Shown in pieces: positions 1 to 20,421 of a stretch of DNA of 21,717 nt (position 1 is the first letter of the stretch; each line of letters begins with the position of its first letter). This DNA is from a virus. Both the position numbers and the translations under genes were made by a program. The notes beneath the pieces were generated by a model. It was not told the origin of the DNA. It did not search any database and was given only the letters and a program-made list of their open reading frames with translations. The stretch spans positions 1 through 21,717 of IMG/VR virus record IMGVR_UViG_3300024294_000076, one strand, 5' to 3'.

Positions 1-90
1 TTCGGCATCGAAGTTGAAGACGAAGATATGATGGGACTAGTAACAATTCAAGATGTGTTAGACTACGCAATAAAAACAAAAAATCAATAA
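1..90 (+). CDS. Acyl carrier protein, C-terminal part (5' end outside window)
   Basis: The window opens inside an open frame of 29 residues ending in TAA at 88-90. The visible residues start FGIEVEDEDM and continue with VTIQDVLDYA. They match the second half of acyl carrier protein: the helix II/III stretch with acidic residues after F-x-I-E, then the Thr-x-x-D-x-x-x-Y helix IV typical of ACP. ACP carries growing acyl chains on a phosphopantetheine attached to the Ser of a DSL motif, which would lie just upstream and cannot be seen. The tRNA cluster begins 8 bases after the stop. The call rests on pattern recognition over a short stretch, but a ketoacyl-ACP synthase about 19 kb downstream on the same genome supports it. 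Confidence 0.75.
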   Translation, partial: FGIEVEDEDMMGLVTIQDVLDYAIKTKNQ

Positions 91-1269: not shown

Positions 1270-1298
1270 TTGACATATACATCATAATATAGTATATT
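1270..1298 (+). promoter_or_regulatory. Sigma70-type promoter
   Basis: CTTGACA with TTGACA at 1270-1275, a 17-base spacer and TATATT at 1293-1298, directly after the stop of the 1059 gene. It drives the gene at 1327. GATTC (1321-1325) occurs in the leader between the RBS and the start codon. Confidence 0.75.
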
Positions 1299-1326
1299 AA
1301 GTATATCAGATATGAGGAGTGATTCG

Positions 1327-1518: not shown

Positions 1519-1524
1519 ATAACA

Positions 1525-1609: not shown

Positions 1610-1622
1610 AAACTATTTACTT

Positions 1623-1711
1623 ATGCCGTTCTGGGTGCGCTTGGAATTACTGCAATAATTCCATAACCTGTTGCAGCAGGGAGTTAGGGTTCGAGTCCCT
1701 TAAGCGGTATT
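1623..1711 (+). ncRNA. tRNA-like element, no regular anticodon arm and no CCA
   Basis: The ends can pair as a 7-bp acceptor (ATGCCGT with GCGGTAT, including two G-T pairs). A T-arm core GGG-TTCGAGT-CCC sits where expected. In between there is no normal D-arm. Instead there is an 8-bp perfect hairpin TGGAATTA (1642-1649) / TAATTCCA (1656-1663) with loop CTGCAA, and TTGCAG at 1671-1676 is complementary to that whole loop. It could be a degenerate tRNA, a tRNA with an odd fold, or part of a structured RNA with a pseudoknot. I do not call it a working tRNA. Confidence 0.45.
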
Positions 1712-1891
1712 AGTAAATGGTTTTTCACTCGACGGAGTGAGATCGTGGTGACTGAAGCGATGTCGGGAGACGGCATCAAGGTACCAGAGAAGAGACTTAG
1801 CGGTCTGGGTTAGCGCCTGCATCTGGGTAGAGAGATAATTGCACGAGTCTTCTTGCTCTCTCTTGGTGGTAATAAGTAAGTCCACCCCACA
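1712..1891 (+). ncRNA. Candidate structured RNA next to the tRNAs
   Basis: This stretch has no convincing gene but holds five successive inverted repeats: TCACTC/GAGTGA (1725-1740), GATGTC/GGCATC (1759-1777), CCAGA/TCTGG (1784-1808), AGAGAGA/TCTCTCT (1829-1863) and GGTGG/CCACC (1865-1886). It looks more GC-rich than the surroundings, a common mark of structured RNA in an AT-rich genome. T4 is known to encode stable RNAs (species C and D) of unclear function beside its tRNA cluster, so a similar RNA is plausible. The ends are not defined and no terminator was found inside. Confidence 0.45.
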
Positions 1892-1899
1892 CATAAATA
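1892..1899 (+). promoter_or_regulatory. Late-type promoter motif (CATAAATA)
   Basis: CATAAATA differs by one base from the T4 late promoter core TATAAATA and lies 35 bases before the start at 1934. The T4 motif is recognised by the phage sigma gp55; use here is inferred. Confidence 0.45.
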
Positions 1900-1933
1900 A
1901 CTCTATAAGACAACACAAACGAGGGATACAACA

Positions 1934-2155
1934 ATGTTTACAGCAATCGTTTTAGTATGCTTAAGTGGTGAAGATATAGTAAGAGACAACTGCTTTACAT
2001 ATACAAATGAAGTTCTTTGGAACACCGAAGACCAGTGTAAGACAGCAGTCATGGCTGGAATAAAAGAAAACGTATTTACTTTTGAAGATACAGCCAATAG
2101 ATCATGGGGACCAGCAAGCTTTAACTGTGTACCATGGAAAGTGAAGAGCATTTAG
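1934..2155 (+). CDS. Small Cys-containing protein with hydrophobic N-terminus
   Basis: 73 residues, function unknown. The start follows GAGGGA at a usable distance. The first 11 residues (MFTAIVLVCLS) are hydrophobic but lack a basic n-region, so export is uncertain. Four Cys at residues 9, 20, 35 and 65, with patterns such as DNCFTYTNE and EDQCKTAV, resemble small marine-phage proteins with conserved Cys. The CATAAATA motif upstream suggests late expression. It stands alone, bounded by the candidate RNA and by the convergent minus-strand operon. Confidence 0.6.
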   Translation: MFTAIVLVCLSGEDIVRDNCFTYTNEVLWNTEDQCKTAVMAGIKENVFTFEDTANRSWGPASFNCVPWKVKSI

Positions 2156-2172
2156 CTCTCCACTATTTTTTT
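2145..2172 (+). terminator. Weak intrinsic terminator between convergent units
   Basis: AGAGC-ATTTA-GCTCT (2145-2159) overlaps the stop codon at 2153-2155. Seven T at 2166-2172 follow after a 6-base gap. The short stem and the gap make it weak. Confidence 0.4.
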
Positions 2173-2177
2173 ATTTA

Positions 2178-2618
2178 CTAGTAATCATCATCTTTTTTAG
2201 ATGCCTTTTTACTATAAGCATTAGCACCAAAGAACGCTGCTACTAAGCCAGCAATCGCTACAAAATATGTAGGCGCAATATCACCGATTAGTTGTGCGGC
2301 ATCTTCTACACCAAAGAGTGATGTAGCAAGAATAAGAATAGGATATAGTAGCATACCCCAAAGAGCAAACCATGCCATTGCACGAATTTGGTCTTCTTTA
2401 GCATCTTCATTCTCACGCATTTTTTTCTTATGTTCCCATTCTGCAATCTCTTTTGCTCGGGACATTTCTTCGTCTGTGATAATACCATCGCCATCTGTAT
2501 CTAGATGTGCGTAAATGGAATCAGCTTCCATTATTTTAGGTGTTTCATTAACTTTCTTTTCCGCCATTGGTTTAGTCTCCTCCAAGTCTGCGTCTTTTAA
2601 AAAATCATCGTTAGACAT
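2178..2618 (-). CDS. EF-hand membrane protein
   Basis: 146 residues. Residues 40-51 (DTDGDGIITDEE) form a canonical EF-hand loop: Asp at positions 1, 3 and 5, Gly at 6, Ile at 8, Glu at 12. That predicts Ca2+ binding by the N-terminal domain. After a charged helix (52-79) come two hydrophobic segments, about 80-102 and 117-136, then a polar tail KKASKKDDDY. Similar EF-hand plus two-TM proteins occur in marine T4-like phages without known function. It is the last gene of the minus-strand operon. The ATG has an AAGG site formed by the end of the preceding gene. A role in the envelope, such as signalling or a pore, is inference. Confidence 0.75.
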   Translation of the reverse strand: MSNDDFLKDADLEETKPMAEKKVNETPKIMEADSIYAHLDTDGDGIITDEEMSRAKEIAEWEHKKKMRENEDAKEDQIRAMAWFALWGMLLYPILILATSLFGVEDAAQLIGDIAPTYFVAIAGLVAAFFGANAYSKKASKKDDDY

Positions 2619-2620
2619 AA

Positions 2621-2779
2621 TTAACCTTTTTTAACCATAGTCCATGCGCCCCAAGCGATAGCGATACCTGCGGCAATCTTAGCTAGTGGTGCCATAAAAA
2701 GAATCATAAGACCAAGAGCAATTAACATTCCTCCATCCCATGTTGTTCTTTCTACTAATCTTTTCTTAATCCATTTCAT
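2621..2779 (-). CDS. Small membrane protein
   Basis: 52 residues, unrecognised. The ATG at 2779 has a strong AGGAGA site, and its first bases overlap the TGA of the upstream gene (ATGA). A basic N-terminus (MKWIKKRLVER) is followed by a long hydrophobic stretch (about residues 17-48: GMLILALG-like, then AGIAIAWGAW) and a short KKG end. It has one or two membrane passes. It sits among other small membrane proteins, so a lysis (holin-like) or membrane-remodelling role is possible but not shown. Confidence 0.6.
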   Translation of the reverse strand: MKWIKKRLVERTTWDGGMLIALGLMILFMAPLAKIAAGIAIAWGAWTMVKKG

Positions 2780-3063
2780 TTCTTTCTCCTATTAGATTCT
2801 AATTGATGTATTCTCTTTTCCAATTCATCAATTTTATTTGTAACTCGAGGATATCGTTTGCGCCATGCTTCTGGGTCATCTTGCAACCACTCCCAACCAA
2901 ATTTGTCTGTTAAATAATTTAGACTTCTATCGAATTTAGCCATGAGCCATAAAGCCATGTTCGTGTTTCTAAACCATGCTAAAAATGCGGCACCAAATAT
3001 AGAGCCAGCAATTGCTGTGTAAATCCACAGAGTATCGCCAAACATTCTTGTTAGCATTTCCAT
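2776..3063 (-). CDS. Membrane protein with C-terminal coiled coil
   Basis: 95 residues from the ATG at 3063, which has a perfect GGAGG 5 bases upstream; the in-frame ATG 12 bases earlier overlaps that site and is unlikely. Residues 12-32 (TLWIYTAIAGSIFGAAFLAW) form a membrane segment. A Trp-rich middle (DKFGWEWLQDDPEAWRK) and a coiled-coil tail (IDELEKRIHQLESNRRKK) follow. Function unknown. Its RBS lies in the stop region of the preceding gene, giving tight coupling. Confidence 0.65.
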   Translation of the reverse strand: MEMLTRMFGDTLWIYTAIAGSIFGAAFLAWFRNTNMALWLMAKFDRSLNYLTDKFGWEWLQDDPEAWRKRYPRVTNKIDELEKRIHQLESNRRKK

Positions 3064-3064
3064 G

Positions 3065-3271
3065 TTAACCTCCAAACGTGCTTACTATGCTAGGGCCAAA
3101 CGAAGTTGCCACCCATGCTAGTACGCCAACTGCGCCAAGACCGACTATAACCCATTTCATTTTGAAGTCATCTACTTTCATAGTCATACCAATCAATTCT
3201 GTATTCATTATGCGAATGCTTAAATCGAAAGTTCCTTCTGGCGTATCTTCGTCTTTTAATGAAGTACTCAA
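3065..3271 (-). CDS. Single-pass membrane protein, TTG start
   Basis: 68 residues, unrecognised. No ATG fits; TTG at 3271 is preceded by AGGAG with 7 bases of spacing, and its first base is one after the stop of the lipase gene. The N-terminal 40 residues are polar (many Asp, Thr, Met), followed by one membrane helix (about 41-60: VIVGLGAVGVLAWVATSF). It resembles the other small membrane proteins of this operon in size and position. Confidence 0.6.
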   Translation of the reverse strand: MSTSLKDEDTPEGTFDLSIRIMNTELIGMTMKVDDFKMKWVIVGLGAVGVLAWVATSFGPSIVSTFGG

Positions 3272-3272
3272 T

Positions 3273-3998
3273 TTAATTCTCCTTATTTTCTGTGTATTTG
3301 ATATAATGGTTCATGCCGTGATCATATGCACCATCAAATGGCATACCCTTTTTCAAGGCTCTCCAACGTCCACGAAATTTATCTTTTACTCTTTGCCATT
3401 TTGACATGTTTCTTATTTGACCAAAGTAATTGATATATCTTGGCTTACAAGTATGTCTATACCCAAGAAATGCGGGTGGTACACTTGTAACAAGATCATT
3501 GTTGTTTACATGACGATAATGTGGAATATTTTTAAGAGACTTACAAAACTTACGTGTTCCAACTCTAGGTGAACCATAAGTGTAGAGTGCATCTGCGACT
3601 TCGTTAAGTCTACTAGCAGCGATAGTTGCCATTGCTCCGCCTAGAGAATGACCACAAATTAAAAATGTTTTATCGTCTGCATATTTTAGAACGAACTGTA
3701 GTTCATCCCATAGTTTGTCGATTTCTACTTGAAACCCGTTGTGAACCCAACCACCTTCTTGGGCTTTGTCAGGTAGAGCGTTCAAGTCAGCTTTAATATC
3801 TGAGAATTCGCCTGGTTCTGTGCCTCTAAAGCACAATACAAACTCTTCATCATTCCAGACTGCATGGCATTGTGCGCCATCGTCTTCCATGAATATATGA
3901 TTATCATATCCTAATTTTTGATATTCAGAATATGCTTCTTCTTGGTCTAAGTAGGCTAATCCAGCCGCCTTGGCCATTTTATGACAGTTGTGTATCAT
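3273..3998 (-). CDS. Class 3 lipase (alpha/beta hydrolase)
   Basis: 241 residues. The nucleophile elbow GHSLGG is at 116-121 (Ser118), after the typical strand TFLIC. The oxyanion-side motif CFRGT is at 56-60, Asp168 lies in NNNDLVTSVPP, and a C-terminal His (H227 in DHGM, or H231) completes a Ser-Asp-His triad. The YTYGSPRVG block at 139-147 is a lipase_3 signature. The family hydrolyses acylglycerol or phospholipid ester bonds. No signal peptide is visible, so it may act inside the host until lysis. An AAAGGAAAGG site precedes the ATG. It sits in the operon of exported and membrane proteins, which suggests work on host membranes late in infection (inference). Confidence 0.85.
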   Translation of the reverse strand: MIHNCHKMAKAAGLAYLDQEEAYSEYQKLGYDNHIFMEDDGAQCHAVWNDEEFVLCFRGTEPGEFSDIKADLNALPDKAQEGGWVHNGFQVEIDKLWDELQFVLKYADDKTFLICGHSLGGAMATIAASRLNEVADALYTYGSPRVGTRKFCKSLKNIPHYRHVNNNDLVTSVPPAFLGYRHTCKPRYINYFGQIRNMSKWQRVKDKFRGRWRALKKGMPFDGAYDHGMNHYIKYTENKEN

Positions 3999-4042
3999 GA
4001 CCTTTCCTTTGTTGTTGCCATGATGTAGAATTCAATTTGTTA

Positions 4043-4597
4043 TTATTCTGCTAGTGGGTTGTCTAGTGCTTCTTGTATCTTTTCGTTCATATCACTTTCA
4101 AGAGTTCTCATGTCTTCTTCCAAACGATTTTCTGTCGTTCTCATTGTGTCTCTTACATCTTTTTCTGTTTCACGATTTAAAGATTCGACTTCACGTATAC
4201 TACTAGTAACATCTTTTTGAAGTACGTTCATTTCATTACGTACACCCTCTAACGCTGTATCGATAGATGCTTGCGTATTCTTAGTACGATTTTCACTCTC
4301 ATCTACCTTATCTTCCATACGATCTATACTACCCTCAAGCTTTAATATATCATCTTTCAACCCAGATTTAATATCCCTTGTGTAGTCTATAGCCTCATCT
4401 AACTTTGTTTCAATCACATCATTACGAGCTGCTATAGCATCAGTGTCAATGTTTTGAATAATCTCTTTCATGTCCATATAATCTTTATAGATTTCAAAGC
4501 CACCCCAGGCAGCACCACCTAGTGTTGATAACGCAGTAAGAAGTGCAAACATCTTACCACCACTAAATTTTAATCCACCAAACTCTACTTCAGCCAT
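4043..4597 (-). CDS. Membrane-anchored coiled-coil protein
   Basis: 184 residues. After a short N-terminus (MAEVEFGGLKFSGGK), residues 16-35 are hydrophobic (FALLTALSTLGGAAWGGF) and form one membrane segment. Residues from about 40 to 175 are heptad-rich and charged, a long coiled coil. The N-terminal motif resembles a conserved protein of marine T4-like phages. Topology with a periplasmic coiled coil would be like an inner-membrane spanin, but no spanin motif is recognised. The start has GGGGAG and overlaps the previous stop as TAATG. Confidence 0.7.
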   Translation of the reverse strand: MAEVEFGGLKFSGGKMFALLTALSTLGGAAWGGFEIYKDYMDMKEIIQNIDTDAIAARNDVIETKLDEAIDYTRDIKSGLKDDILKLEGSIDRMEDKVDESENRTKNTQASIDTALEGVRNEMNVLQKDVTSSIREVESLNRETEKDVRDTMRTTENRLEEDMRTLESDMNEKIQEALDNPLAE

Positions 4598-4923
4598 TAT
4601 TTCTCCCCTCCAAAGGGTATGTTTATTCCTAGAACTACGCCAGGTTTTCCGTCGTAACCTGGCATAAGAAACCAGTTTTTATATTTTAATCTAGCTATGG
4701 GTCTAAAAAACTCTTTACCAGAATACCCAGTTGCTAATCCAACATCTATATAATCACCTAAAAGTAGTCCATTAAATATGCTAACTGAGCCTTCACTATT
4801 GACTACAACACTTCCAATATAACTCTCATTAGTACATGAGATGTTGGGATGTATTTCATTATACTCCCTACCAAAGCCCATATGAGACGTTAAAGCTAGT
4901 GCAGCTATGCACGTTAATTCCAA
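4597..4923 (-). CDS. Putative envelope protein with beta-strand pattern, TTG start
   Basis: 108 residues. TTG at 4923 is the best start, with AGGAG 7 bases upstream. The N-terminus (about residues 2-14) is hydrophobic and may be a weak export signal. Residues 60-106 show alternating aromatic and small residues (VGLATGYSG, then RPIARLKYKNWFLMPGYDG and VVLGINIPF), typical of beta strands in a small barrel. Similar proteins occur in T4-like phages without assigned function. Its RBS lies in the loop of an inverted repeat (4922-4952) whose arm touches the start codon, so translation may be structure-controlled. Confidence 0.6.
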   Translation of the reverse strand: MELTCIAALALTSHMGFGREYNEIHPNISCTNESYIGSVVVNSEGSVSIFNGLLLGDYIDVGLATGYSGKEFFRPIARLKYKNWFLMPGYDGKPGVVLGINIPFGGEK

Positions 4924-4952
4924 TATTCTTCTCCTAATATAACTAGAATATT
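4922..4952 (-). promoter_or_regulatory. Inverted repeat enclosing RBS and start of the 4597-4923 gene
   Basis: AATATTC (4922-4928) and GAATATT (4946-4952) are perfect 7-base arms. On the minus strand the 17-base loop holds the AGGAG site, and one arm overlaps the TTG start codon. It could limit translation; stability is low because the arms are AT-rich. Confidence 0.35.
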
Positions 4953-4967
4953 AGAAGTAGACCTTTT

Positions 4968-5390
4968 TTAGTTTTCGAATTGCAACTGTCTTAGTTGTTG
5001 TAATTCTCTTTCTAACTTCATTACTTCTAGTCGTTTTTTCTGTAGTTCTAACTCATATAAATCATTACAATTAATTCTAGCTTTAGGCCTTGCACCTAGT
5101 GGAATAGTAATTCTTGCATACACACCAACATCACCAGGTCTACTCGAATCATTAAATGAGTTATTCATAGTATCATATTGACCTTTTTGTATGATACCAG
5201 TTACTCCAACCTCCATTGAAGTAGCCGATCCAATAGCATTAGCACAATCTAATTCACCGGCTCTAAACCTATCTTGTTGATAGCTTTGCGGTAACCCAGG
5301 TATAGCTAAGTTTAAAGAACTTGAATCGGCAAAGGCAATACTCACTGCAAATATTTGACACGTACTCAATAATATTAATCTTCTAAACAT
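4968..5390 (-). CDS. Exported protein with C-terminal coiled coil
   Basis: 140 residues. Residues 1-21 are a clear signal peptide (MFRR, hydrophobic core, SIAFA cleavage). The mature part has two Cys (C49 in ELDCANAI and C108 in RINCNDLYE) that could form a disulfide, beta-rich motifs (VGVTGII, DVGVYARITIPLG) and a coiled coil at about 110-140. The pattern recurs in marine T4-like phages, function unknown. It would act in the periplasm or envelope. The spacing to neighbours is short, consistent with one transcript. The ATG has only a weak GTGAG site. Confidence 0.7.
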   Translation of the reverse strand: MFRRLILLSTCQIFAVSIAFADSSSLNLAIPGLPQSYQQDRFRAGELDCANAIGSATSMEVGVTGIIQKGQYDTMNNSFNDSSRPGDVGVYARITIPLGARPKARINCNDLYELELQKKRLEVMKLERELQQLRQLQFEN

Positions 5391-5402
5391 TACGATCTCA
5401 CT

Positions 5403-5789
5403 CTACTTATCTAATTTTGAACATATCCTAGAAGCTATGACAGACAATTCTTTTTCATCATTATCATCTTTAATCAATTTTGACCTAGTACACACATAGA
5501 CTGCTTTATCTTTATCTTTGCTTCTAATGTATACGTCAAATGATTTTCTCTCTAAATAGTTCACTGTTAAAATTCTAGCTGAGGCAGCAAATGGTATTTT
5601 ATTCCATTCTTTATCAAACACCTCAATCTCATAATATGTAACATCTTCTCTTCTATTGAAAAGCATCATTGTTACAACACTTACTGCGTCTATATGTGAC
5701 GTTCTTAATTTAGGGTATGTTGGCGTTAACTCATGAGCCGAAGCTGTCGAACCTAACGCCAACATTAACATAATGAAAAATACTCTCAT
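5403..5789 (-). CDS. Exported protein resembling a PapD-type chaperone N-domain
   Basis: 128 residues with a signal peptide (residues 1-18, cleavage after TASA). The mature part is predicted as beta strands. VVTMMLFNRREDVTYYEIEV and LTVNYLERKSFDVYIRSK mimic the N-terminal Ig-like domain of pilus chaperones, where a strand is followed by a buried basic site and a LEPG-like turn. There is no second domain, so it is about half the usual chaperone length. Two Cys (about C100 and C123) are possible disulfide partners. The start overlaps the stop of the pilin-like gene (TAATG), as expected for coupled partners. The chaperone reading is a weak-similarity inference. Confidence 0.55.
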   Translation of the reverse strand: MRVFFIMLMLALGSTASAHELTPTYPKLRTSHIDAVSVVTMMLFNRREDVTYYEIEVFDKEWNKIPFAASARILTVNYLERKSFDVYIRSKDKDKAVYVCTRSKLIKDDNDEKELSVIASRICSKLDK

Positions 5790-6298
5790 TAGTTAGCGAT
5801 ACATTCTGCAACTACAACTGTAGTATAAGTACCAGCCGGTAATGATTTAGTATTTCCGTAAGCTGCTGTTGAATCTACGGTAAACCAAGTTGTTCCCGCC
5901 GCAGTCAGATTGAATTCTGTTACATTATTATATGTAACTTTGTTTGATTCATAATCAGACATAGCTGTATCACCAACTTCTTTTACAGTAGTAGCACCTG
6001 TCCAAGTTACAGAATCGTTTAGACTTGGGCTAGACGAAAATGAATCTGGATGAGATATTTTCGCTGTATAGTAAGCTGCTTGTGCAACATCATAACGAAT
6101 GATTGGTTTTACCCCACCAGCACTTGGTTCAGTACTTAGTTGGTGTGGTGTTGGTGAACCGTACACACCTGCTCTATCTGTAAAAATAGAACATTTAGAT
6201 TGTACAGTACCCGTGATAGGCACTTCTTGTGATGCTGCTAGTGCGGATCCTGTGGTAGCTGCTGCAGCAATTAGTATAATAGCTTTTATGTTCGCCAT
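5789..6298 (-). CDS. Exported pilin-like / spore-coat-U-like beta protein
   Basis: 169 residues. Residues 1-21 form a signal peptide ending SALA. The mature protein begins with VPITGTVQSKC, has Cys36 near the start and Cys166 near the end, and closes with PAGTYTTVVVAEC. That order (G-T-V..C at the N-terminus and a L-P-A-G-x-Y strand at the end) resembles fimbrial subunits and SCPU-domain proteins secreted by chaperone-usher systems. No usher gene is in this window. The gene is directly upstream of the PapD-like gene. A GGAG site precedes the ATG. It may be an exported surface protein or a virion decoration with an Ig-like fold. Confidence 0.6.
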   Translation of the reverse strand: MANIKAIILIAAAATTGSALAASQEVPITGTVQSKCSIFTDRAGVYGSPTPHQLSTEPSAGGVKPIIRYDVAQAAYYTAKISHPDSFSSSPSLNDSVTWTGATTVKEVGDTAMSDYESNKVTYNNVTEFNLTAAGTTWFTVDSTAAYGNTKSLPAGTYTTVVVAECIAN

Positions 6299-6316
6299 TT
6301 TAGTTTCTCCACTAAT

Positions 6317-7213
6317 TTAGTTTCGGTATTGTGAGCGTACCATCTCTCTATGAACTTCGTCACGTCCTAGGTTACTTAACGCTCTTGCATTATCAGGTAA
6401 GTCACTATCTTGTAAGGTAATCGTTTCTTCATAAACTCCGCCAGGAATTATTGCATTAGTATATACTTCAAATTGAGGTATAGTTGAAAGCTGGCTAATA
6501 ATATCACTTTGCCTAGCACCATCTATAAACCCCTCAATATCTACATTCTTGTTTAGCATTTCGATTGGATCTAGCTCTTTTGCTTTATCCTCTTCGCTTT
6601 TAGCTTGTTCTTTTTCTTCTTCAGTCTCTTCGTCAACCTCAGTCTCTCTATTAAGATTTAGTTGAACCCATTCATCATAATATGGATCATTAACATCTGG
6701 TTCACGATCCAGTAAACCTCTTTCTTTTAGCCAGTCATATAGAGCAGATTCATAACCAGGACATTCCGGGTTTGCTATCACTATATAACACGGGTCAAAC
6801 CTATATGTATAATATACACTTGGGTCTTGAACAGTACCAAAGCCTGTTGTTGCTATAGACCCTTCACCAAAAAGTTCTGCCGGTAGATTACTAAGAGGTA
6901 CTGACTTATTTATTGTAGCGCCAGGTAATTGACTCCAATCATCTGTCTCTCTAAACATATATTCATTAGCAGTACCCAATTTTCTATTTTGTATTGTTAC
7001 TGTAAAGTCATCATTCGCATTTTTTTGAACTGTATATCTATATAAAACACTACCGATTGTTATTCCAGCTTCAGGTGGTAAAACGTCAGCCATGTTCCAA
7101 ACTGGACCATTCGATGCTGCATTATTTGTTGTTCCGCCTACCGTATCACAATAAGAGTAAGAGGAAAAGCCCACCGATAATACTGCCGCCAATAAAGGTA
7201 CTCTTATTTTCAT
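6317..7213 (-). CDS. Large exported protein of unknown function
   Basis: 298 residues with a signal peptide (about 1-22, MKIRVPLLAAVLSVGF). The central part has a Cys pair (FDPCYIVIANPECPGYE), reminiscent of a conserved marine-phage secreted protein. A very acidic stretch (about 195-220, ETEVDEETEEEKEQ) is followed by a C-terminal domain rich in polar residues. I do not recognise the fold. Its first 68 bases overlap the end of the upstream gene in another frame, and the start has only a weak site, so translation is probably coupled. An envelope or periplasmic role follows from the signal peptide only. Confidence 0.7.
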   Translation of the reverse strand: MKIRVPLLAAVLSVGFSSYSYCDTVGGTTNNAASNGPVWNMADVLPPEAGITIGSVLYRYTVQKNANDDFTVTIQNRKLGTANEYMFRETDDWSQLPGATINKSVPLSNLPAELFGEGSIATTGFGTVQDPSVYYTYRFDPCYIVIANPECPGYESALYDWLKERGLLDREPDVNDPYYDEWVQLNLNRETEVDEETEEEKEQAKSEEDKAKELDPIEMLNKNVDIEGFIDGARQSDIISQLSTIPQFEVYTNAIIPGGVYEETITLQDSDLPDNARALSNLGRDEVHREMVRSQYRN

Positions 7214-7712
7214 CGCTTATACGCCTGTTTCTTGCTTCTGGTTGTTGTTCAGGATTTTCTTCCCATGCTAGTTTAGCTGCTTGACCAATCATGCCATCAT
7301 ATGGGCATGGTGTGCCTGCTTGCATCATTGCTCTAAAGACCCTAGGATCCTGGCACATGACTGACACGGCTGCCACTTTCATTCCCATATCATATAAAGT
7401 TTTTGCGTTTTTTAATTTTTCACAGTTCATATCCCTTACAGCCTTACCCGCCGAGATCCCTAGAATTTGGGTCTGTACCGCCCCTGATACTCCTACAGTA
7501 CATAAATCAGAATTAGCTGAGTTTATATTTGGGGAAATAGCAGATGGTGGTGGGGATTTTACTGTGGTTTCTGACTTAGCATCACTTGTTACTGAACTTG
7601 TAGTAGTTGATTCTGTTACAATTGCATTACTATTGAGTGTTGCAGTATCTTCTGCTATCGAAGCAGTTGCAAATACAAGGCCAAAAATGACCAAAGTGAT
7701 TCTTTTAAACAT
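7146..7712 (-). CDS. Exported protein with C-terminal membrane anchor
   Basis: 188 residues, first gene of the minus-strand operon. A signal peptide (1-20, cleavage SIA) is followed by a Ser/Thr-rich linker with SPPPSAISP. A conserved-looking core holds TVGVSGAVQTQILGISAGKAV, four Cys and the block GTPCPYDGMIGQ; then comes a C-terminal hydrophobic segment (about 173-188, IGGSIIGGLFLLLLL). The core resembles a protein found in T4-like cyanophages, with no function known to me. The topology is periplasmic, anchored at the C-terminus. A CATAAATA late motif lies 37 bases upstream of its start. Confidence 0.75.
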   Translation of the reverse strand: MFKRITLVIFGLVFATASIAEDTATLNSNAIVTESTTTSSVTSDAKSETTVKSPPPSAISPNINSANSDLCTVGVSGAVQTQILGISAGKAVRDMNCEKLKNAKTLYDMGMKVAAVSVMCQDPRVFRAMMQAGTPCPYDGMIGQAAKLAWEENPEQQPEARNRRISDENKSTFIGGSIIGGLFLLLLL

Positions 7713-7748
7713 ATCTTATCCACCTATATTAGTATAATTTCACTCTTA

Positions 7749-7756
7749 TATTTATG
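7749..7756 (-). promoter_or_regulatory. Late-type promoter motif for the minus-strand operon
   Basis: On the minus strand this reads CATAAATA, one base off the T4 late core, 37 bases before the start at 7712. It is the only promoter-like signal seen for the whole 7712-2178 gene run. Confidence 0.5.
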
Positions 7757-7777
7757 AAAATAAAGACCTTATTCCTC

Positions 7778-7791
7778 TTGATTCGAATCAA
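7778..7791. promoter_or_regulatory. Perfect 14-bp palindrome overlapping a -35 box
   Basis: TTGATTCGAATCAA is a perfect palindrome and contains two GANTC sites (GATTC and GAATC). Its left half is the -35-like TTGATT of the plus-strand promoter. It looks like an operator for a dimeric regulator in the divergent region. Confidence 0.5.
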
Positions 7792-7806
7792 AAAGTATGA
7801 TATATA
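7778..7806 (+). promoter_or_regulatory. Putative promoter for the plus-strand small genes
   Basis: TTGATT at 7778-7783, a 17-base spacer and TATATA at 7801-7806, 40 bases before the ATG at 7846. The -35 lies in the palindrome. Confidence 0.55.
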
Positions 7807-7845
7807 TAAATGTACATATTCCTGTAATTGAGAACGAAGCAACGC

Positions 7846-8025
7846 ATGTTAAAACCAACTCATTCTTGTTGTACGAACTCAAAGCTTGAAAGAAGAAAGA
7901 CTGTGCTAACTATAGACGATCTTAGGTTTGATGTAGTTATAGTTTATTGTAAGAGTTGTGGTGTTGTAAGACCAAGTGGCTCTACAATTTTCGATGGTAG
8001 TAAAACAAATGAGGTGGAAGTTTGA
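7846..8025 (+). CDS. Small Cys-rich, zinc-ribbon-like protein
   Basis: 59 residues from the ATG at 7846; a TTG 18 bases earlier has no ribosome binding site. Two Cys pairs, CC at residues 8-9 (HSCCTN) and CKSC at about 36-39, with two strands between them (LTIDDLRFDVVIVY), suggest a small zinc-binding fold. I do not recognise the family. It is the first plus-strand gene after the divergent promoter region, so early expression is likely. It overlaps the next gene by 4 bases. Confidence 0.6.
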   Translation: MLKPTHSCCTNSKLERRKTVLTIDDLRFDVVIVYCKSCGVVRPSGSTIFDGSKTNEVEV

Positions 8026-8255
8026 TACACACAATAGAAGATATGATGCGTAGAATTGATGTAATGAAAGACAAAGCTATAGAGTTGCATCGTATTAGGA
8101 ATCAATATAGCGAACTAAGTGGTAAAACTTACGATAAAGTTATTGCGAAGGCCTTGTTAGAAGATATACAAGGAATGGCAGCCGGTATTGCGAATGATAC
8201 ACAAGGTGATGAGATTAGAACTGAAATGGAATATAAAGGAAGAAATTATGAATAA
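8022..8255 (+). CDS. Small helical protein, TTG start
   Basis: 77 residues, unrecognised. TTG at 8022 overlaps the previous TGA and has GAGGTGG a few bases upstream; an ATG at 8043 is an alternative without a clear site. The sequence is mostly alpha-helical, with basic residues in the first third (MMRRIDVMKDKAIELHRIRN) and an acidic end. It belongs to a run of overlapping small genes. Confidence 0.6.
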   Translation: MIHTIEDMMRRIDVMKDKAIELHRIRNQYSELSGKTYDKVIAKALLEDIQGMAAGIANDTQGDEIRTEMEYKGRNYE

Positions 8256-8445
8256 AGTAAAAGTTACAGCCAATCTAAAGTTAAAAACTTATAATGTTAG
8301 AGTACCTGGAATGAAAACTGTTGATGTTGTAGATGCACGTAACTTTGGTGTGTCTTCATCTGGTGCTTTAGTTTTTAAAGGTAATGATGATGCGGCACTC
8401 AAAGCATACAACTCAGATGAGTGGTTTGAAGTATGGCAAGTGTAA
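8248..8445 (+). CDS. Small hypothetical protein
   Basis: 65 residues from the ATG at 8248, which has AAAGGAAG just upstream; longer forms in frame lack a site. The start overlaps the stop of the preceding gene. The N-terminal half looks like beta strands (KVKVTANLKLKTYNVRV), the C-terminus ends in DEWFEVWQV. Function unknown. Confidence 0.6.
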   Translation: MNKVKVTANLKLKTYNVRVPGMKTVDVVDARNFGVSSSGALVFKGNDDAALKAYNSDEWFEVWQV

Positions 8446-8454
8446 AAATAACAC

Positions 8455-8483
8455 TTGACATTCATTATAATGTATGATAATAT
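8455..8483 (+). promoter_or_regulatory. Sigma70-type promoter
   Basis: CTTGACA (TTGACA 8455-8460), a 17-base spacer and TAATAT at 8478-8483. It opens the unit starting at 8514. It has no GANTC. Confidence 0.78.
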
Positions 8484-8513
8484 ACACACTATTACAATTA
8501 ACTTGGAGTAAAA

Positions 8514-8882
8514 ATGATTAATAAAGATGAACAATATGTAGCAGTTACAGCAGTGGCTACTTTTAAACACCGTTATGTTATTCCAATGAGTGAACTTCAA
8601 GCAAGCAATCCCGATGTACCAGCTGAAGCATCTTGGGCACTTGACGCAGTTACAATGAATGAAGTTGAAGAGTTTAGTCAAAAGTTTTTGGGTGAACATA
8701 TCGTTGATGCTCAAGTCATGGACCAAGAGCAAATCTTGCAACTCTTTGATGGCGATAACGACTATTTAAAATCTTGGTCTACAGATCAAAAGTTACAACA
8801 TATTCATCGTTGTTGGGTTAATGTTGAAGAAGGTACCACATCTAGTCGGGCTAATGAGAAATTAAATGTCTCAGAAACGTGA
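8514..8882 (+). CDS. Conserved-type phage protein of unknown function
   Basis: 122 residues. TTGGAG lies 7 bases before the ATG. The beginning (QYVAVTAVATFKHRYVIPM) reads as two beta strands, similar to small phage proteins that start with an antiparallel pair; the rest is helical and acidic with several Trp. I cannot assign a function. It is the first gene of a unit running through 10943, and overlaps the next gene by 17 bases. Confidence 0.6.
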   Translation: MINKDEQYVAVTAVATFKHRYVIPMSELQASNPDVPAEASWALDAVTMNEVEEFSQKFLGEHIVDAQVMDQEQILQLFDGDNDYLKSWSTDQKLQHIHRCWVNVEEGTTSSRANEKLNVSET

Positions 8883-9051
8883 GTCTTACCATGACTTTAT
8901 GGGTCGTAAAATGCGTGAAGAAGACGCTAAGATTATGACTGACGAACAAATGATTGAGCGTTTAAGATCACATGCCCATTGGACAGTTCAAAAGCCGTGG
9001 GCAGATATTGCGAATAGATTAGAAGAACTTAGTAACAAGGAGAAAACGTGA
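8866..9051 (+). CDS. Small charged hypothetical protein
   Basis: 61 residues. The start lies inside the end of the preceding gene. It is rich in Lys, Arg and Glu and probably all helical (FMGRKMREEDAKIMTDEQM). A HAHWTVQKPWADIANRLEEL stretch near the C-terminus is the most distinctive part. No family recognised. Confidence 0.55.
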   Translation: MSQKRESYHDFMGRKMREEDAKIMTDEQMIERLRSHAHWTVQKPWADIANRLEELSNKEKT

Positions 9052-9309
9052 ATGGGTAATAGATCCACTGGTAAGAATTATACGTCAAAGGGTGAGCGTC
9101 GAAGTTCGATTAGCACACCTAACAAAGACTCGGGCCAACGTGTTTTGAATCAAATGAGGGCTTTAGAACAAGGTAAAGATGTAGTTTTTACTATTGAGAA
9201 CCCAAATAAAAATGAAACCAATCGCAAGTTCATTAAGCAACGTGTGTCTGGTAGAGAATGGGTTAAGAGGCATCAAAGCTTTAGATTAGCGGGTGGCCCA
9301 AGTGATTAA
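9052..9309 (+). CDS. Small basic hypothetical protein
   Basis: 85 residues. The ATG follows the previous stop immediately and has AAGGAG upstream. The N-terminus is basic and disordered-looking (GNRSTGKNYTSKGERRSS), followed by a helical part (RVLNQMRALEQGKDVVFTIE) and a C-terminal basic segment with KQRVSGREWVKR. A nucleic-acid-binding role is possible; similar proteins occur in T4-like marine phages without assigned function. Confidence 0.6.
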   Translation: MGNRSTGKNYTSKGERRSSISTPNKDSGQRVLNQMRALEQGKDVVFTIENPNKNETNRKFIKQRVSGREWVKRHQSFRLAGGPSD

Positions 9310-9550
9310 AATATATGGTACTCAAAATTGTTCATATTGCAAACAAGCAAAAGATGTAGCTGAAAGCTACGACTTGCCATATGAGTACATAGATTTACAC
9401 GAAGGTGATAATATGAATATTTTTCAGAAAAAGTTTCCAGGTGTTCGAACAGTACCACAAATTGTTTGGTACGAGAAGCATGTTGGCGGCTTTACTGAAT
9501 TTTTGCAAGAAATAGAGGACACTAGAACTTATGGAGATGGAAGTGTATAA
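9302..9550 (+). CDS. Glutaredoxin
   Basis: 82 residues from GTG at 9302 (an in-frame GTG at 9293 is an alternative). The redox motif CSYC is at residues 10-13 after the first strand (IKIYGTQN), the cis-proline motif TVPQIV near residue 53, and a Gly-Gly near 62 follow the glutaredoxin fold in order. Length matches phage glutaredoxins such as T4 NrdC. Glutaredoxin supplies electrons to ribonucleotide reductase for dNTP synthesis. It overlaps the neighbouring gene on each side by a few bases, within the unit started at 8455. Confidence 0.88.
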   Translation: MIKIYGTQNCSYCKQAKDVAESYDLPYEYIDLHEGDNMNIFQKKFPGVRTVPQIVWYEKHVGGFTEFLQEIEDTRTYGDGSV

Positions 9551-9821
9551 TAAAAATCAAATCAAAGAAATTCTTTTAAATGAAGTAGTTAGCTTATCTT
9601 TTGAGAAGAAAGATGGCTCAATTCGTGAAATGACTGCTACACTAATCGCAGATCAATTACCAGTTGTTGATGCAGCTGCGTCAAAAGAGAAACCACTAAA
9701 TAACAAAAAGAGCGACTCATCTATTGCTGTATGGGACGTTGATAAAAAGGCTTGGCGTTCATTCCGTTGGGATAGCTTAAAGACATTTAAGAACGTTGCC
9801 GCAAAGGTGGAGACAGGGTAA
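9543..9821 (+). CDS. DUF2693 / WYL_2-type protein (SH3-like fold)
   Basis: 92 residues from GTG at 9543 (GGAG 6 bases upstream); an in-frame ATG at 9531 is an alternative. The start (NKNQIKEILLNEVVSLSFEKKDGSIREM) followed by a polar linker and the end AVWDVDKKAWRSFRWDSLKTF match the layout of the small phage family called DUF2693 or WYL_2: a beta strand pair after an N-terminal helix and a terminal W-R-S-F-R. Its biochemical role is unknown; a regulatory or nucleic-acid-binding role is usually guessed. Confidence 0.72.
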   Translation: MYNKNQIKEILLNEVVSLSFEKKDGSIREMTATLIADQLPVVDAAASKEKPLNNKKSDSSIAVWDVDKKAWRSFRWDSLKTFKNVAAKVETG

Positions 9822-10069
9822 TGAATAAATTAGAAGCTTATACAATGCTTCAAAACAATAACGAAAACACCATTCACTGTGAAGTGGGTGGTGACCTTCG
9901 TGTTTACAATCGTGTATCAGTAGATGTTACTGATCCAACTGTTGAATACGATTCTTTAACTACGCCGTTTCTTTATGTTATAAAAGATAATGCAATTGAC
10001 AACGTGCAAAGAATTACTTGGAAAACTATTAAAAGTGTAAATGGAGTACGTTACATACATGCTAAATGA
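9821..10069 (+). CDS. Small hypothetical protein
   Basis: 82 residues. The ATG overlaps the preceding TAA (TAATG) and has GGAG upstream. Predicted mostly beta (NTIHCEVGGDLRVYNRVSVDV, FLYVIKDN, ITWKTIKSV). Its ending, a strand with W-x-T-I-K, resembles the end of the neighbouring WYL_2-type protein, so they may share a fold, but that is weak. No function assigned. Confidence 0.58.
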   Translation: MNKLEAYTMLQNNNENTIHCEVGGDLRVYNRVSVDVTDPTVEYDSLTTPFLYVIKDNAIDNVQRITWKTIKSVNGVRYIHAK

Positions 10070-10943
10070 TGAAAAGATTATTGATGGAATTAATCCAGAT
10101 ATTTTAAAAGATGTTCAAGTACTAAGAAACTTTAAAGAAGATTTAGATCCTAAGAAGAAAAAAGTCTTTGTTGTAGATACTTTGCCAAACGATCCTGAGG
10201 TCTTACCACTCAAAGAAAAGTGGAAAGTCTTTGATAAAATTGTGTTCAAAAGTTTTTTACAAAAGACATTGTTTAATACTTACTTCGAAATTCCATACTC
10301 AGCTGGTACTGTGATTAGAGATAGCGTTACACCTATTAAAGCACATAAGAAAAATAAAGATACAGTAAATATTGTATATCATGCTGAGCCATATGTTGGT
10401 TTAGATTTAGTTTATATTGCATTTAGAACACTTGCCGCAGATTACGAGAACTTAAGACTAGATATCTACACTGCAAATGGTGAATATGTTTGGGATGAAA
10501 ATGATGAGACGTTTTCAGAGTTATTCAGACTTATAAATGAACATCCGCAAATAACTAATTATGGTCGCAAGTCTCCCAAAGAAATCAGAGATGGTTTAGA
10601 GAATGCAAATATTTTTGTTGCACCAGGCACTATAATGCAAGCAACAAACGAAAGACTACTAGAGGCAATGAGTGCAGGTTTGATCTGTGTACATTCTTCT
10701 CATGGCGCTTTACCTGAACTTGGTATGAATTTAACGTACATGTATGAATATACAGAAGACAAACAGCAACATTTAAACATGTTACACCATCATCTTAAGA
10801 GTGCTATCGAAAGTGTATTGCATCCCAACAAAGATTTGCAAAATAATCTAGAACTGCAAAAAAACATCATTGATACCCTACATGATATCAATTATAAAAG
10901 CAAAGAATGGGAAAAAATGTTTAAAGGCCTCTTGACAACGTAA
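10041..10943 (+). CDS. Glycosyltransferase (GT-B type)
   Basis: 300 residues. The C-terminal half carries the typical GT-B donor-site pattern: KSPKEIRDGLENANIFVAPG (around 180-200), then NERLLEAMSAGLICVHSSHGALPEL (about 207-231), where the E-x-x-x-A-M-S-A-G glutamate and Gly/Ala stretch mark the nucleotide-sugar site of GT4-like enzymes. NIVYHAEPYVGLDLVYIAF near 113-131 is the hinge region. Similar genes are frequent in marine T4-like phages, where they may modify DNA bases, virion proteins or host surface glycans; the acceptor cannot be told. The ATG at 10041 lacks a clear site; ATG 10059 is an alternative. The start overlaps the previous gene. Confidence 0.78.
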   Translation: MEYVTYMLNDEKIIDGINPDILKDVQVLRNFKEDLDPKKKKVFVVDTLPNDPEVLPLKEKWKVFDKIVFKSFLQKTLFNTYFEIPYSAGTVIRDSVTPIKAHKKNKDTVNIVYHAEPYVGLDLVYIAFRTLAADYENLRLDIYTANGEYVWDENDETFSELFRLINEHPQITNYGRKSPKEIRDGLENANIFVAPGTIMQATNERLLEAMSAGLICVHSSHGALPELGMNLTYMYEYTEDKQQHLNMLHHHLKSAIESVLHPNKDLQNNLELQKNIIDTLHDINYKSKEWEKMFKGLLTT

Positions 10944-16925: not shown

Positions 16926-18554
16926 ATGGAACAAGAATACATCGTAGCTCTACACAGAAATGTTGATGTAGAACAATTTCACCTAGAGATGATCGAAGAA
17001 ACTGGTGGTGGCGTAATACCAACTAGAGAAGTTTCTGTTGCGAATCAAAGAACTAATTCAAAGCGTCAATTCAATTATATGCTAACAGGCGAAGAAGTTG
17101 ATTGGTTGTCGAAAGACGAAAGAGTTTATGGTGTAACATTAAAAGATGATCCGATGAGAACAATTTCGGTTGATTCTATTCGTGAATTTAATTACGAAAA
17201 AAAAGTTAACGTAGTTAATACATCTTCTAATTGGGGTCTAGTTAGATCAAACAAAGTTGCTAATCCGTTTAATGGTGCAGGCGATCTATCACAAAACGAT
17301 AACCAATATGATTATGTCTTAGACGGCACTGGCGTTGATGTAGTGATTATGGACACTGGTATTCAAGTAGACCACCCAGAGTTCGAAGATAAGAATGGTG
17401 TTAGTAGAGTACAACAAATTGATTGGCCTACAGCATCTGGACTTACTGGTCTATCTCAACCCGCAAACTTCTATACAGATACAAACGGACATGGAACACA
17501 TGTAGCTGCCACTGCCGTTGGTAAAACATATGGATGGGCTTCTGAAGCACATGTGTTTAGCATGAAACTAAATCTAGGTGGTAATGGTATCACTGATGGG
17601 TTTGATATTCCAGATGCTTTTGATCTTATGTTAGGTTGGCACAATGCAAAGACAAATGGAAGACCAACTGTAATAAACATGAGTTGGAGTACGCAAAGTG
17701 TATTTTTACCAACTGAGTGGAAGCTAGAAGCATTTGTACATAGAAATGTAAATTATTATTGGAATATTAATTTTACCTCTAGAGCCGCTGTTTATGAAAA
17801 TGTAGGTCTACTAGATTCCACAGTTATAGGTCGACCAAATAATCAAATCATAATGCCATCAAGGGTTGCTTCCTATGATGTGAGTGTTGAAGAATTGAGT
17901 GATGCTGGTTGTCTTTGTTTTGTATCAGCAGGCAATATGCCAGTTAAGCATGATGTACCTACTGGCGTTGATTATGATAACCGAGTAATCATGGAATACA
18001 TTGGAACAACTAACTCTAACTTTACAAATGGCAATAACTACTTTGCCAATTATCATAGAGGCGGAAGTCCATTTAGCGAAGATGCTTTATCAGTAAGTAA
18101 CCTTGATAGTAATCTTAATAATAACTCAGAAGAGCAAATAGCACAAATGTCTGTTAGAGGACCTGCTATTTCAATGCTTGCTCCTGGTACGAACATCATT
18201 TCTGCTTGGGGTGAAGGTACTAATTATGAAGACACGTCACCTGACCAAGTTGTGACATACCCATTTGATAGTAACTTTAAAACAGTGATGGCAAGTGGTA
18301 CATCAATGTCATCTCCTCAAGTTGCTGGCTTGGCCGCAGTGTATTGGAGTCTCGAACCTACTATTAATAATTTAGAATTAAAAAACAAATTAGAGCTTGA
18401 CGCAAGCAAAGATTTGGTGTATAATACAGCATTAGATAACGAATATGACAATCTAAGAACTTTGTTAGGTACACCGAATAGAATCCTCTATAACAGATAC
18501 TCTAGCAACACGCCAGGTTCTTTTAATAGTGTAGGAAATGCAAACTTCGAATAA
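16926..18554 (+). CDS. Subtilisin-family serine protease (virion-type, S8)
   Basis: 542 residues. The catalytic triad is complete: Asp143 in IMDTGIQVDHPEF, His189 in NGHGTHVA, Ser460 in ASGTSMSSPQVAG, and the oxyanion Asn337 in SAGN. Residues 1-75 resemble an I9-type propeptide (YIVALHRNVDVEQFH), so it may be made as a zymogen. Between the His and the Ser there is an unusually long insertion region. No signal peptide, so it acts inside the cell or in the particle. It follows the fibre-like gene with a gap of 10 bases and overlaps the nuclease gene by 1. Similar proteases are known among marine T4-like phage virion proteins. Confidence 0.9.
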   Translation: MEQEYIVALHRNVDVEQFHLEMIEETGGGVIPTREVSVANQRTNSKRQFNYMLTGEEVDWLSKDERVYGVTLKDDPMRTISVDSIREFNYEKKVNVVNTSSNWGLVRSNKVANPFNGAGDLSQNDNQYDYVLDGTGVDVVIMDTGIQVDHPEFEDKNGVSRVQQIDWPTASGLTGLSQPANFYTDTNGHGTHVAATAVGKTYGWASEAHVFSMKLNLGGNGITDGFDIPDAFDLMLGWHNAKTNGRPTVINMSWSTQSVFLPTEWKLEAFVHRNVNYYWNINFTSRAAVYENVGLLDSTVIGRPNNQIIMPSRVASYDVSVEELSDAGCLCFVSAGNMPVKHDVPTGVDYDNRVIMEYIGTTNSNFTNGNNYFANYHRGGSPFSEDALSVSNLDSNLNNNSEEQIAQMSVRGPAISMLAPGTNIISAWGEGTNYEDTSPDQVVTYPFDSNFKTVMASGTSMSSPQVAGLAAVYWSLEPTINNLELKNKLELDASKDLVYNTALDNEYDNLRTLLGTPNRILYNRYSSNTPGSFNSVGNANFE

Positions 18555-19219
18555 TGTTTAAACATGTTAATATGGAAGCTCTACCAGAGCTTGACTGTGA
18601 GACTTTACCAACAGGTCGAACTTACATCACCCCAGAAGGTAACAAATATCCTTCTATTACAACAGTACTCTCTCTTCTTAGTAAAGATGGTATTCTTGCT
18701 TGGAGAAAACGTGTAGGTGAAGAGACTGCTAATAAGATTAGTACTCAAGCTGCCACACGTGGTACAGCAGTGCATCAACTCGCCGAAGACTATCTAAACA
18801 ATAAAGAAGATTGGTCTAAGGGTGCAATGCCTGCAAACTTATTCTCTTTTAATCAAATCAAACCAATACTAGATAAACGTGTTACTAATATTTGGGCGCA
18901 AGAAGTCCCATTGTATAGTGACAAGTTTATGATTGCTGGTCGTGTAGATTGTATTGCTGAGTTTGATGGCGAACTAACTATTATCGATTTTAAAACATCA
19001 CGTAAGCCAAAGAAAGAAGAGTGGGTTCAAAATTACTTTATTCAAGCTTCGTTCTATGCTGCAGCATTTTATGAAAGAACTGGAATATCAATTAAAAAGT
19101 TTGCTATCGTAATTACAGTTGATGGTAGTGAACCACAAGTGTTTACTGGTAACACATTTAAATATCTTCAAAAATTATATGACGTAAGACAAAGGTTTAT
19201 TGCAGAGCGAGGTATATGA
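18554..19219 (+). CDS. PD-(D/E)XK exonuclease (RecB/Cas4-like)
   Basis: 221 residues. The motif order is clear: conserved His74 in GTAVHQLAEDY, then RVDCIAEFDGELTIIDFKTSR, with Asp132, Asp145 and Lys147 as the D-...-D-x-K core. KPKKEEWVQNYFIQASFYAAAFYE is the helix with the Q-x-x-x-Y pattern of RecB-family nucleases. It likely works in phage DNA replication or recombination, or degrades host DNA. The start overlaps the protease stop (TAATG) and its stop overlaps the ketoacyl synthase start. Confidence 0.85.
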   Translation: MFKHVNMEALPELDCETLPTGRTYITPEGNKYPSITTVLSLLSKDGILAWRKRVGEETANKISTQAATRGTAVHQLAEDYLNNKEDWSKGAMPANLFSFNQIKPILDKRVTNIWAQEVPLYSDKFMIAGRVDCIAEFDGELTIIDFKTSRKPKKEEWVQNYFIQASFYAAAFYERTGISIKKFAIVITVDGSEPQVFTGNTFKYLQKLYDVRQRFIAERGI

Positions 19220-20385
19220 TGCAACCGATATATGTAGTTGGTTTTGGTATGGTCGATGGGTTGGGTTATGACTACAACACCTGTTGGGATAAAATGATTG
19301 ATGATAATAACTACACTAGTGATATACCAGAAATGGTTGAGCAAGATTATAAAATCAATAAAGGTATGCCAGTCAACTTAGATGAACTTGTTCTACAAGA
19401 CAATCTTCCGTTAAAGATAAGACCTTCTTTCTCAAACTCTCAAATGTTAGGATTTCATTCGACTAAAAGAGCGATTGAAATGGCTGGTCTACCTCATAGC
19501 AAAAATGTTTCTATAGTCTTTTCAAGTGTCTCAAATGATATTGAGATGGGTGTAGATATGTTGAATAGAGTACACAACAGTAAGAGAGTTCTTGTAAGGC
19601 GTCTTGTCAATCGCATTCCTGAAATGACTTCTTCGCACCTCTCATCTCTATATGGCTTCATGGGAAATACTGTTGGGCTACAAGCATCTTGTGCGACCGG
19701 ACTGGCTTCTATAGACTATGGTATGTATGAAGCACAAGAAAGTGACTATGTGATTGTAGGTGGCTCTGATGCGGGTTGTTGTAACCTTGCTGTTAAATAC
19801 TTTAATCAACTAGGCGCTATCGCAAATCACTCAGCACCGTTTGATGAAAATCGAGCGGGCTTTCTTATGGGAGAAGGTGGCGCTACTCTTGTTCTTATGA
19901 GAGAAGAGATGGTAGAGAAATACAAAGTTAGACCTATCGCTAGACTTTACCCTATGGGGAAATCTAATGATGCTGTTGAAATGACTTCGCCCGCATCTGA
20001 TGGACGTGGTGCTACTATTGCTATCGGTAAAGCATTACAACACGTAGATAGCGTAGACGCAGTAAATGCTCATGCCACATCAACTCCAGTAGGTGATGAA
20101 ATCGAATATAACACTATTGTTAACTCAATAGGCGAAGTGCCTATCTGGGCACCCAAGAGTAAAATTGGTCATACACTTGCAACCGCTGGTGTGATAGAAA
20201 CAATCTACTCTATCCTTTCTATGAATAGAGGAGTAATACCTCACATTCACAATCTTGAAACTTGTACATTTGATGATAAGAACTTACTAGTACGAGAGAA
20301 TATGTTTAAACCAGCTAAAAGAATGTTGAATAATTCTTTTGGGTTTGGTGGAAAAAATATGGCTCAAGTAATAGAAATCTGCTGA
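19216..20385 (+). CDS. Beta-ketoacyl-ACP synthase (FabF/FabB-like thiolase fold)
   Basis: 389 residues, near the usual 400-410 of FabF. The active-site Cys159 stands in LQASCATGLASI, His286 in NAHATSTPVGDE, Lys314 and His319 in PKSKIGHTLATAG, and the Gly-rich loop NNSFGFGGKN (372-381) closes the C-terminus. All catalytic residues of a condensing enzyme are present, so it should join an acyl thioester with malonyl-ACP by decarboxylation. The partner ACP may be the one ending at base 90. FabF in bacteria elongates fatty acids; a phage copy may change membrane lipids or make a special acyl product. It overlaps the nuclease gene by 4 bases, so it is part of that transcript. The best-matching subfamily cannot be told here. 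Confidence 0.88.
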   Translation: MMQPIYVVGFGMVDGLGYDYNTCWDKMIDDNNYTSDIPEMVEQDYKINKGMPVNLDELVLQDNLPLKIRPSFSNSQMLGFHSTKRAIEMAGLPHSKNVSIVFSSVSNDIEMGVDMLNRVHNSKRVLVRRLVNRIPEMTSSHLSSLYGFMGNTVGLQASCATGLASIDYGMYEAQESDYVIVGGSDAGCCNLAVKYFNQLGAIANHSAPFDENRAGFLMGEGGATLVLMREEMVEKYKVRPIARLYPMGKSNDAVEMTSPASDGRGATIAIGKALQHVDSVDAVNAHATSTPVGDEIEYNTIVNSIGEVPIWAPKSKIGHTLATAGVIETIYSILSMNRGVIPHIHNLETCTFDDKNLLVRENMFKPAKRMLNNSFGFGGKNMAQVIEIC

Positions 20386-20392
20386 ATACCTC

Positions 20393-20421
20393 TTGACATT
20401 ACCCGAATCATATACTATATT
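20393..20421 (+). promoter_or_regulatory. Sigma70-type promoter with GAATC spacer element
   Basis: CTTGACA (TTGACA 20393-20398), a 17-base spacer and TATATT at 20416-20421. CGAATC lies in the spacer, its G 11 bases before the -10. It drives 20453. Confidence 0.78.

Follow-up and report, generated by a model that had tools for sequence, protein, structure and literature searches.

The DNA analysed here, termed the window, is a 21,717-base fragment from IMG/VR (IMGVR_UViG_3300024294_000076) that carries genes for a T4-type RNase H, PhoH, a PD-(D/E)XK exonuclease, PAAR, and a subtilase, together with five tRNAs. The T4 RNase H C-terminal domain and the block of PhoH and exonuclease, as T4 core genes, place it among the T4-like phages, and its RNase H is 55% identical to those of Sinorhizobium phages of the T4 superfamily. 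Independent assemblies reproduce the region: L083 is 99.96% identical to positions 1421–10657, and L003 and L127 share ~90% DNA identity with the window, flanks included, and are colinear with it through a gene encoding a ketoacyl-ACP synthase (KAS). Sampling of the window phage extends to ~59 kb, a part of its genome. The features discussed below are collected in Table 1.

Table 1. Positions of the KAS and acyl carrier protein (ACP) genes and of other features in the window and in related viral contigs (window positions unless a locus is named).
Feature	Position	Strand	Remarks
ACP, C-terminal 29 codons and stop	1..90	+	DSL serine upstream of base 1
Class 3 lipase	3273-3998	-	PF01764, 9e-20
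Gene run	4043-7712	-	several signal-peptide-like starts
PD-(D/E)XK exonuclease	18554..19219	+	phrog_298; directly upstream of KAS
KAS, 389 aa, FabF fold	19216..20385	+	ATG to TGA; C159 nucleophile, H286, H319, K314, gate 375-FGFGG-379
Promoter-like TTGACA-17-TATATT	20393..20421	+	just 3' of KAS; consensus match only, site number about that in shuffles
Full ACP, 84 aa (G066)	L116:1492-1746	-	DLDSLDLLE; PF00550, 3.6e-13
Cupredoxin (G066)	L125:318-734	-	PF00127; pseudoazurin-like by eye
DoxX-family protein (G066)	L125:1-318	-	
Dps/ferritin-like protein (G066)	L124:11163-11597	-	
Heme oxygenase (G001)	L127:2453-3028	-	PF01126, 2e-19
Ferredoxin-dependent bilin reductase (G001)	L127:1756-2487	-	PF05996, 4e-17
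Phosphate-permease-like membrane protein (G001)	L126:12477-13448	-	by eye; no Pfam match
Porin-like outer-membrane protein (G001)	L127:585-1388	-	by eye; no Pfam match
Curli-like set (G075, ~107-111 kb)	L130:9411-13351	+	CsgF 1.5e-11; CsgG 5.7e-50; curlin-repeat proteins (best 1.7e-12); FecR-domain protein
Second phage ACP type and neighbours	L117:10-1728	+	

The first-pass annotation had placed a 389-residue KAS here, and the open reading frame is exact. Both Pfam domains, ketoacyl-synt (PF00109, 1.2e-24) and Ketoacyl-synt_C (PF02801, 7.9e-22), score above their curated cut-offs and follow one another in the order of the KAS I/II superfamily, with its thiolase-like fold. Comparison with solved FabF-type KAS by phmmer gave E-values down to 1.6e-37, and the structure predicted by AlphaFold2 from a 51-row alignment (pLDDT 91.9, pTM 0.94) matched solved FabF structures in Foldseek with TM scores of 0.93–0.95. 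Aligned with E. coli FabF and FabB, residues C159, H286, K314, H319, and F377-G378-G379 stand in invariant columns, and the enzyme keeps the Cys-His-His triad, the structural Lys, and the GFGG gate of the superfamily; the four catalytic residues named beforehand are as described. The presence of the Cys also rules out a chain-length factor.

Two further marine contigs carry the gene, with identities of 93% (L002/L127) and 89% (L003), and in both it lies, as in the window, with the exonuclease on one side and g20453/g20719 on the other. Its GC3 lies inside the range of the neighbouring genes, and comparison of the window and L127 copies (Nei-Gojobori style) gave a dN/dS of ~0.06, indicating purifying selection between phage copies. 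With the two further contigs, this ratio marks the KAS, as judged from its sequence, as a functional phage gene; the first-pass view that it is not a relic is upheld, and a pseudogene or dead enzyme is ruled out by the intact active site together with the same ratio. Because the exonuclease stop and the start of the KAS overlap (ATGATG), co-translation of the two is probable, and this overlap and the promoter-like site after the KAS most likely place the KAS in the exonuclease transcription unit, of which the promoter-like site is the likely boundary.

Several neighbouring genes deserve mention in their own right. The class 3 lipase recurs at 58–73% identity in ~30 related viral contigs, most of them without a KAS. 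The minus-strand gene run beside it is common to many related contigs, and its genes that were tested against Pfam gave no convincing match. In the phage contig G075, the region that corresponds to this run of exported proteins holds a curli-like set, and the window genes may possibly form a parallel system for secretion or a surface fibre. G001, a relative that carries the KAS, has a heme oxygenase adjoining a ferredoxin-dependent bilin reductase; the pair is similar to the hemO-pcyX/pcyA cassette of aquatic phages (PMC11480375) and ties that cassette to the present phage group; the same contig carries a phosphate-permease-like and a porin-like protein.

The KAS is strongly divergent from its cellular relatives. 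The best full-length identity was ~34% across 289 alphaproteobacterial genomes and ~31% in plasmids, and, among the matches listed, the best cellular ones were housekeeping-type alphaproteobacterial FabFs. With that housekeeping FabF (KAS II; TIGR03150, PRK07314), it shares the fold, both Pfam domains, the Cys-His-Lys-His residues, and the GFGG gate, but it is 26–34% identical, has a changed GIGG pocket loop, and is phage-borne with an ACP of its own. As a FabF equivalog it is rejected by 201.5 bits against the TIGR03150 cut-off of 493.75; at no more than 34% full-length identity and so far under this cut-off, the KAS is, in sequence terms, an orphan. A NodE-type KAS is likewise rejected (24% identity to NodE, with the ACP 19 kb off and not adjacent), as is a type II PKS KS-alpha/KS-beta (PRK07103, 121 bits against a cut-off of 445, the record containing no second KS). 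A tree of 99 KAS, built by a quick method without bootstrap, put it inside none of the starred sets, on an end branch of 4.61. Of 45 columns with a conservation of at least 95%, it deviates at 15, and in the near-invariant GIGG loop G110 is replaced by D114 and G111 by M115 (I-G-G to V-D-M); the basic K123/R124 are retained where FabF has its ACP-docking patch. From the roles established for E. coli FabF, we take the loop to lie near the acyl pocket and the K123/R124 position to serve ACP docking, and the changed loop suggests an altered chain specificity. The enzyme is best described as a putative member of the KAS I/II superfamily that stands outside all named subfamilies tested and is paired with a phage ACP.

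No close KAS was found in 50,697 GenBank phage records, which bears out the first-pass remark that such enzymes are rare in T4-like phages. All 28 tblastn matches were less than 60% identical (24–36% among the matches listed), and they include one annotated case that is a host mnmC-fabB region and one record that is a Salmonella genome. The KAS fold also occurs in uncultured phages, as in the BFVD viral models A0A8S5QDX3 and A0A6J7X0R1, at 17–21% identity to the window KAS.

The first 90 bases of the window translate to FGIEVEDEDMMGLVTIQDVLDYAIKTKNQ followed by a stop. This peptide matches C-terminal positions 62–88 of 93 in phrog_5934, 'acyl carrier protein', weakly (E 0.005), and 24 of its 29 residues match those of a full-length ACP in the close relative G066, in agreement with the first-pass reading of the window start as the C-terminal part of an ACP. 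The window being a 21,717-base fragment, the ACP serine falls off its end; it can be seen in G066, which covers most of positions 444–10117 at 84–96% DNA identity (the lipase is 99% identical) and has the complete gene, with a PF00550 domain and the DSL serine. The serine that had been sought upstream of base 1 is thus present in the full gene of this relative. Searches of GenBank phages with the 29-residue fragment and with the full ACP returned nothing meaningful. Near the ACP, G066 also encodes a cupredoxin, a DoxX-family protein, and a Dps/ferritin-like protein.

In the window, the two genes lie 19 kb apart, from the ACP end at 90 to the KAS at 19216, and do not form an operon. Both are absent from the syntenic sister records, where no family match was found: in G005–G007, small ORFs and an HD-like protein follow the exonuclease in place of the KAS, and a Gly-rich protein adjoining the u465 gene fills the ACP site of G006 and G060, the amidase-like gene on the far side of the site being visible in G060 as well. 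A second pairing is found in a sister lineage, whose lipase is 70% identical to that of the window and whose 221-kb member G075 has the same RNase H/PhoH/exonuclease block. Its KAS (412 aa, 8 contigs) is 20–23% identical to the window KAS, 45% to S. meliloti NodE, and 35% to E. coli FabF; close to NodE and within a NodE-containing clade, it is of the NodE type. It groups with three alphaproteobacterial KAS (SH-aLRT 99), and each of these nearest bacterial kin (57–58%) lies inside an LpxD-like acyltransferase/ACP/KAS triplet, the LpxD domain scoring 27.5 bits, just below its cut-off. An ACP-like gene with a DSM serine is located ~19.5 kb upstream of the sister KAS on the same strand in all four contigs that reach the expected place (G049, G050, G075, and G079); G076, G077, G078, and G080 end short of this site and are excluded from the count. 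The order and spacing of ACP and KAS are alike in the two lineages, but the intervening genes differ, so the equal spacing may be a coincidence. Orthology of the two phage ACPs, considered because both lie ~2 kb from an EF-hand gene, gained no support from their sequences. Co-occurrence of KAS and ACP in related phages, anticipated by the first-pass annotation, is therefore seen in the window phage and, with an unrelated KAS, in the sister lineage.

ACP genes also occur singly in other viruses. G064 has a sister-type ACP and no KAS within 40 kb downstream, and six other viral contigs have an ACP and no KAS; in three of these, a holo-ACP synthase-like gene is a neighbour. On L145, L146, and L147 (around positions 4.6–6.4 kb), the ACP adjoins such a gene (phmmer 1e-6 to 6e-8), again with no KAS. 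The second phage ACP type, on L117, adjoins proteins that by eye are glycosyltransferase-like and 2OG-Fe(II) oxygenase-like (the oxygenase-like ORF has no Pfam match), which hints at a glycan-modifying cluster.

The first-pass annotation had also proposed looking for other fab or pks genes, and none turned up in the viral loci. Searches by phmmer with E. coli FabH, FabD, FabG, FabZ, FabI, PlsX, and LpxA found none at E 0.01 in ~1.96 Mb of viral sequence, including the whole of G075, and a complete FAS II set (FabD, FabG, FabZ, FabI) is lacking from the viral loci; with ~59 kb of the window phage covered, the absence of fab genes is firm for G075 and provisional for the window phage. Likewise, no acyltransferase was recognised in the phages, the window phage being covered to the same extent. 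The lack of FabD, FabG, FabZ, FabI, and FabH points to a two-part module that depends on the host.

ACPs in T4-like phages are already known, and, as far as open-access papers show, the divergent KAS alongside the ACP is the new part; the open-access literature yielded no report of a T4-like phage that keeps a divergent KAS together with an ACP. The cyanophages P-HM1 and P-HM2 carry an ACP and a holo-ACP synthase (PMC3037559). Both are marine and T4-like and, in common with the present group, encode an ACP together with an S8 peptidase and a terminal quinol oxidase, but they have no KAS, their ACP is of 158 aa and sits in a tail-gene block, and they have their own PPTase. Predicted roseobacter prophages have fabG-acpP-fabF (PMC8224337), that is, also a KAS and an ACP, but adjacent and in bacterial operon order, while the present pair is divergent, separated, and without fabG. 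Virome surveys list fabF, acpP, and fabG as viral genes (PMC10653327).

We tentatively propose, as a reading that may well be correct, that the KAS and ACP constitute a dedicated phage acyl-elongation module making a special chain, perhaps for the cell envelope. The host holo-ACP synthase (AcpS) would load the phage ACP with phosphopantetheine, and malonyl-ACP would be supplied by host FabD. An acyl chain would be transferred onto Cys159 of the KAS, followed by a decarboxylative Claisen condensation by His286, His319, and Lys314, preferably on the phage ACP, and each cycle would be finished by host FabG, FabZ, and FabI. The product, a chain of a length or kind not normal for the host, would stay on the phage ACP and pass to an acyltransferase modifying the envelope (LPS/lipid A, a surface glycan, or phospholipid). 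In this scheme, we infer the formation of holo-ACP, the activity, the partner specificity, the product, the target, and the benefit.

Rhizobial NodE/NodF are a dedicated KAS and ACP for a special acyl chain. By analogy, the phage pair would likewise be a two-part module leaning on host FAS II, although its genes are not adjacent and no Nod-like glycan pathway was seen; we favour the view that it works like NodE/NodF but is built from a different KAS. Since the window KAS is so distant from NodE, the link to envelope acyl chains rests on the sister lineage. There, the strongest single hint to the target, an indirect one, is that the bacterial family of the sister KAS adjoins an LpxD-like acyltransferase. 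Those alphaproteobacterial triplets (L319–L321) contain the nearest cellular kin of the sister KAS and a dedicated ACP, but the window KAS is not close to them and no LpxA-like acyltransferase was detected in the phages. That the sister lineage has a pair of this kind, built on an unrelated KAS, suggests synthesis of a particular acyl chain by these viruses inside the cells they infect.

The main rival to a dedicated module is bulk lipid supply, in which the KAS would replace or boost host FabF/FabB and the ACP add carrier, keeping up fatty-acid supply or membrane fluidity during host shutdown without a special product. The FabF fold with its full active site and the housekeeping FabFs among the best cellular matches listed are consistent with it, and published accounts list fabF/fabG/fabZ and acpP among viral auxiliary genes with a link to lipid synthesis (PMC8224337; PMC10653327). 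However, an enzyme of bulk fatty-acid synthesis is expected to be host-like, which fits poorly with the altered conserved columns and a branch of ~4.6 changes per site, and the sister-lineage KAS resembles NodE rather than housekeeping FabF; we regard bulk supply as possible but doubtful. It is quite unlikely that, instead of serving the envelope, the pair yields a small acylated metabolite or attaches acyl groups to a protein or nucleic acid (for signalling, superinfection control, or a phage component). Dedicated carriers do so elsewhere, one example being IacP, a dedicated ACP that has been connected with the acylation of a secretion translocon (PMC5279801), and the ACPs of P-HM1 and L142 are located among tail genes, but no acyltransferase, thioesterase, or synthetase partner was seen near the KAS or ACP, and the window lipase is kept in many phages that lack a KAS.

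A further alternative treats the KAS and ACP as unrelated acquisitions, the ACP filling another ACP-dependent role and the KAS using no ACP but the host's or acting as a decarboxylase. The 19 kb between the genes and the many phages with an ACP and no KAS, among them P-HM1 and P-HM2, which have just the ACP and a PPTase, would accord with this, but the joint presence and joint absence across the clade and its syntenic sisters, and the second pairing with an unrelated KAS in four of four testable contigs, make it very unlikely. Host contamination or chimeric assembly is effectively refuted: at least one KAS match in the GenBank phage records is clearly host sequence, but the exonuclease-g20453/g20719 slot is common to three independent contigs at ~90% DNA identity, and the cellular genes found reach at most 34% full-length identity to the KAS.

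Returning to the dedicated acyl-elongation module, a bolder and rather unlikely form of it is that phages of the present group have, at least twice and independently, equipped an ACP with a KAS, and that the phage-specific chain rewrites host surface lipids such as lipid A or a surface glycan. If so, it would be, to our knowledge, the first viral dedicated acyl-elongation module. Most metabolic genes of phages have to do with photosynthesis, nucleotides, or phosphate. A KAS that is both conserved and divergent, accompanied by its own carrier and put together again in a sister lineage with an unrelated enzyme, would show phages dictating acyl-chain chemistry, a matter of relevance to membrane remodelling, receptor masking, and the lipids that infected marine bacteria contain.
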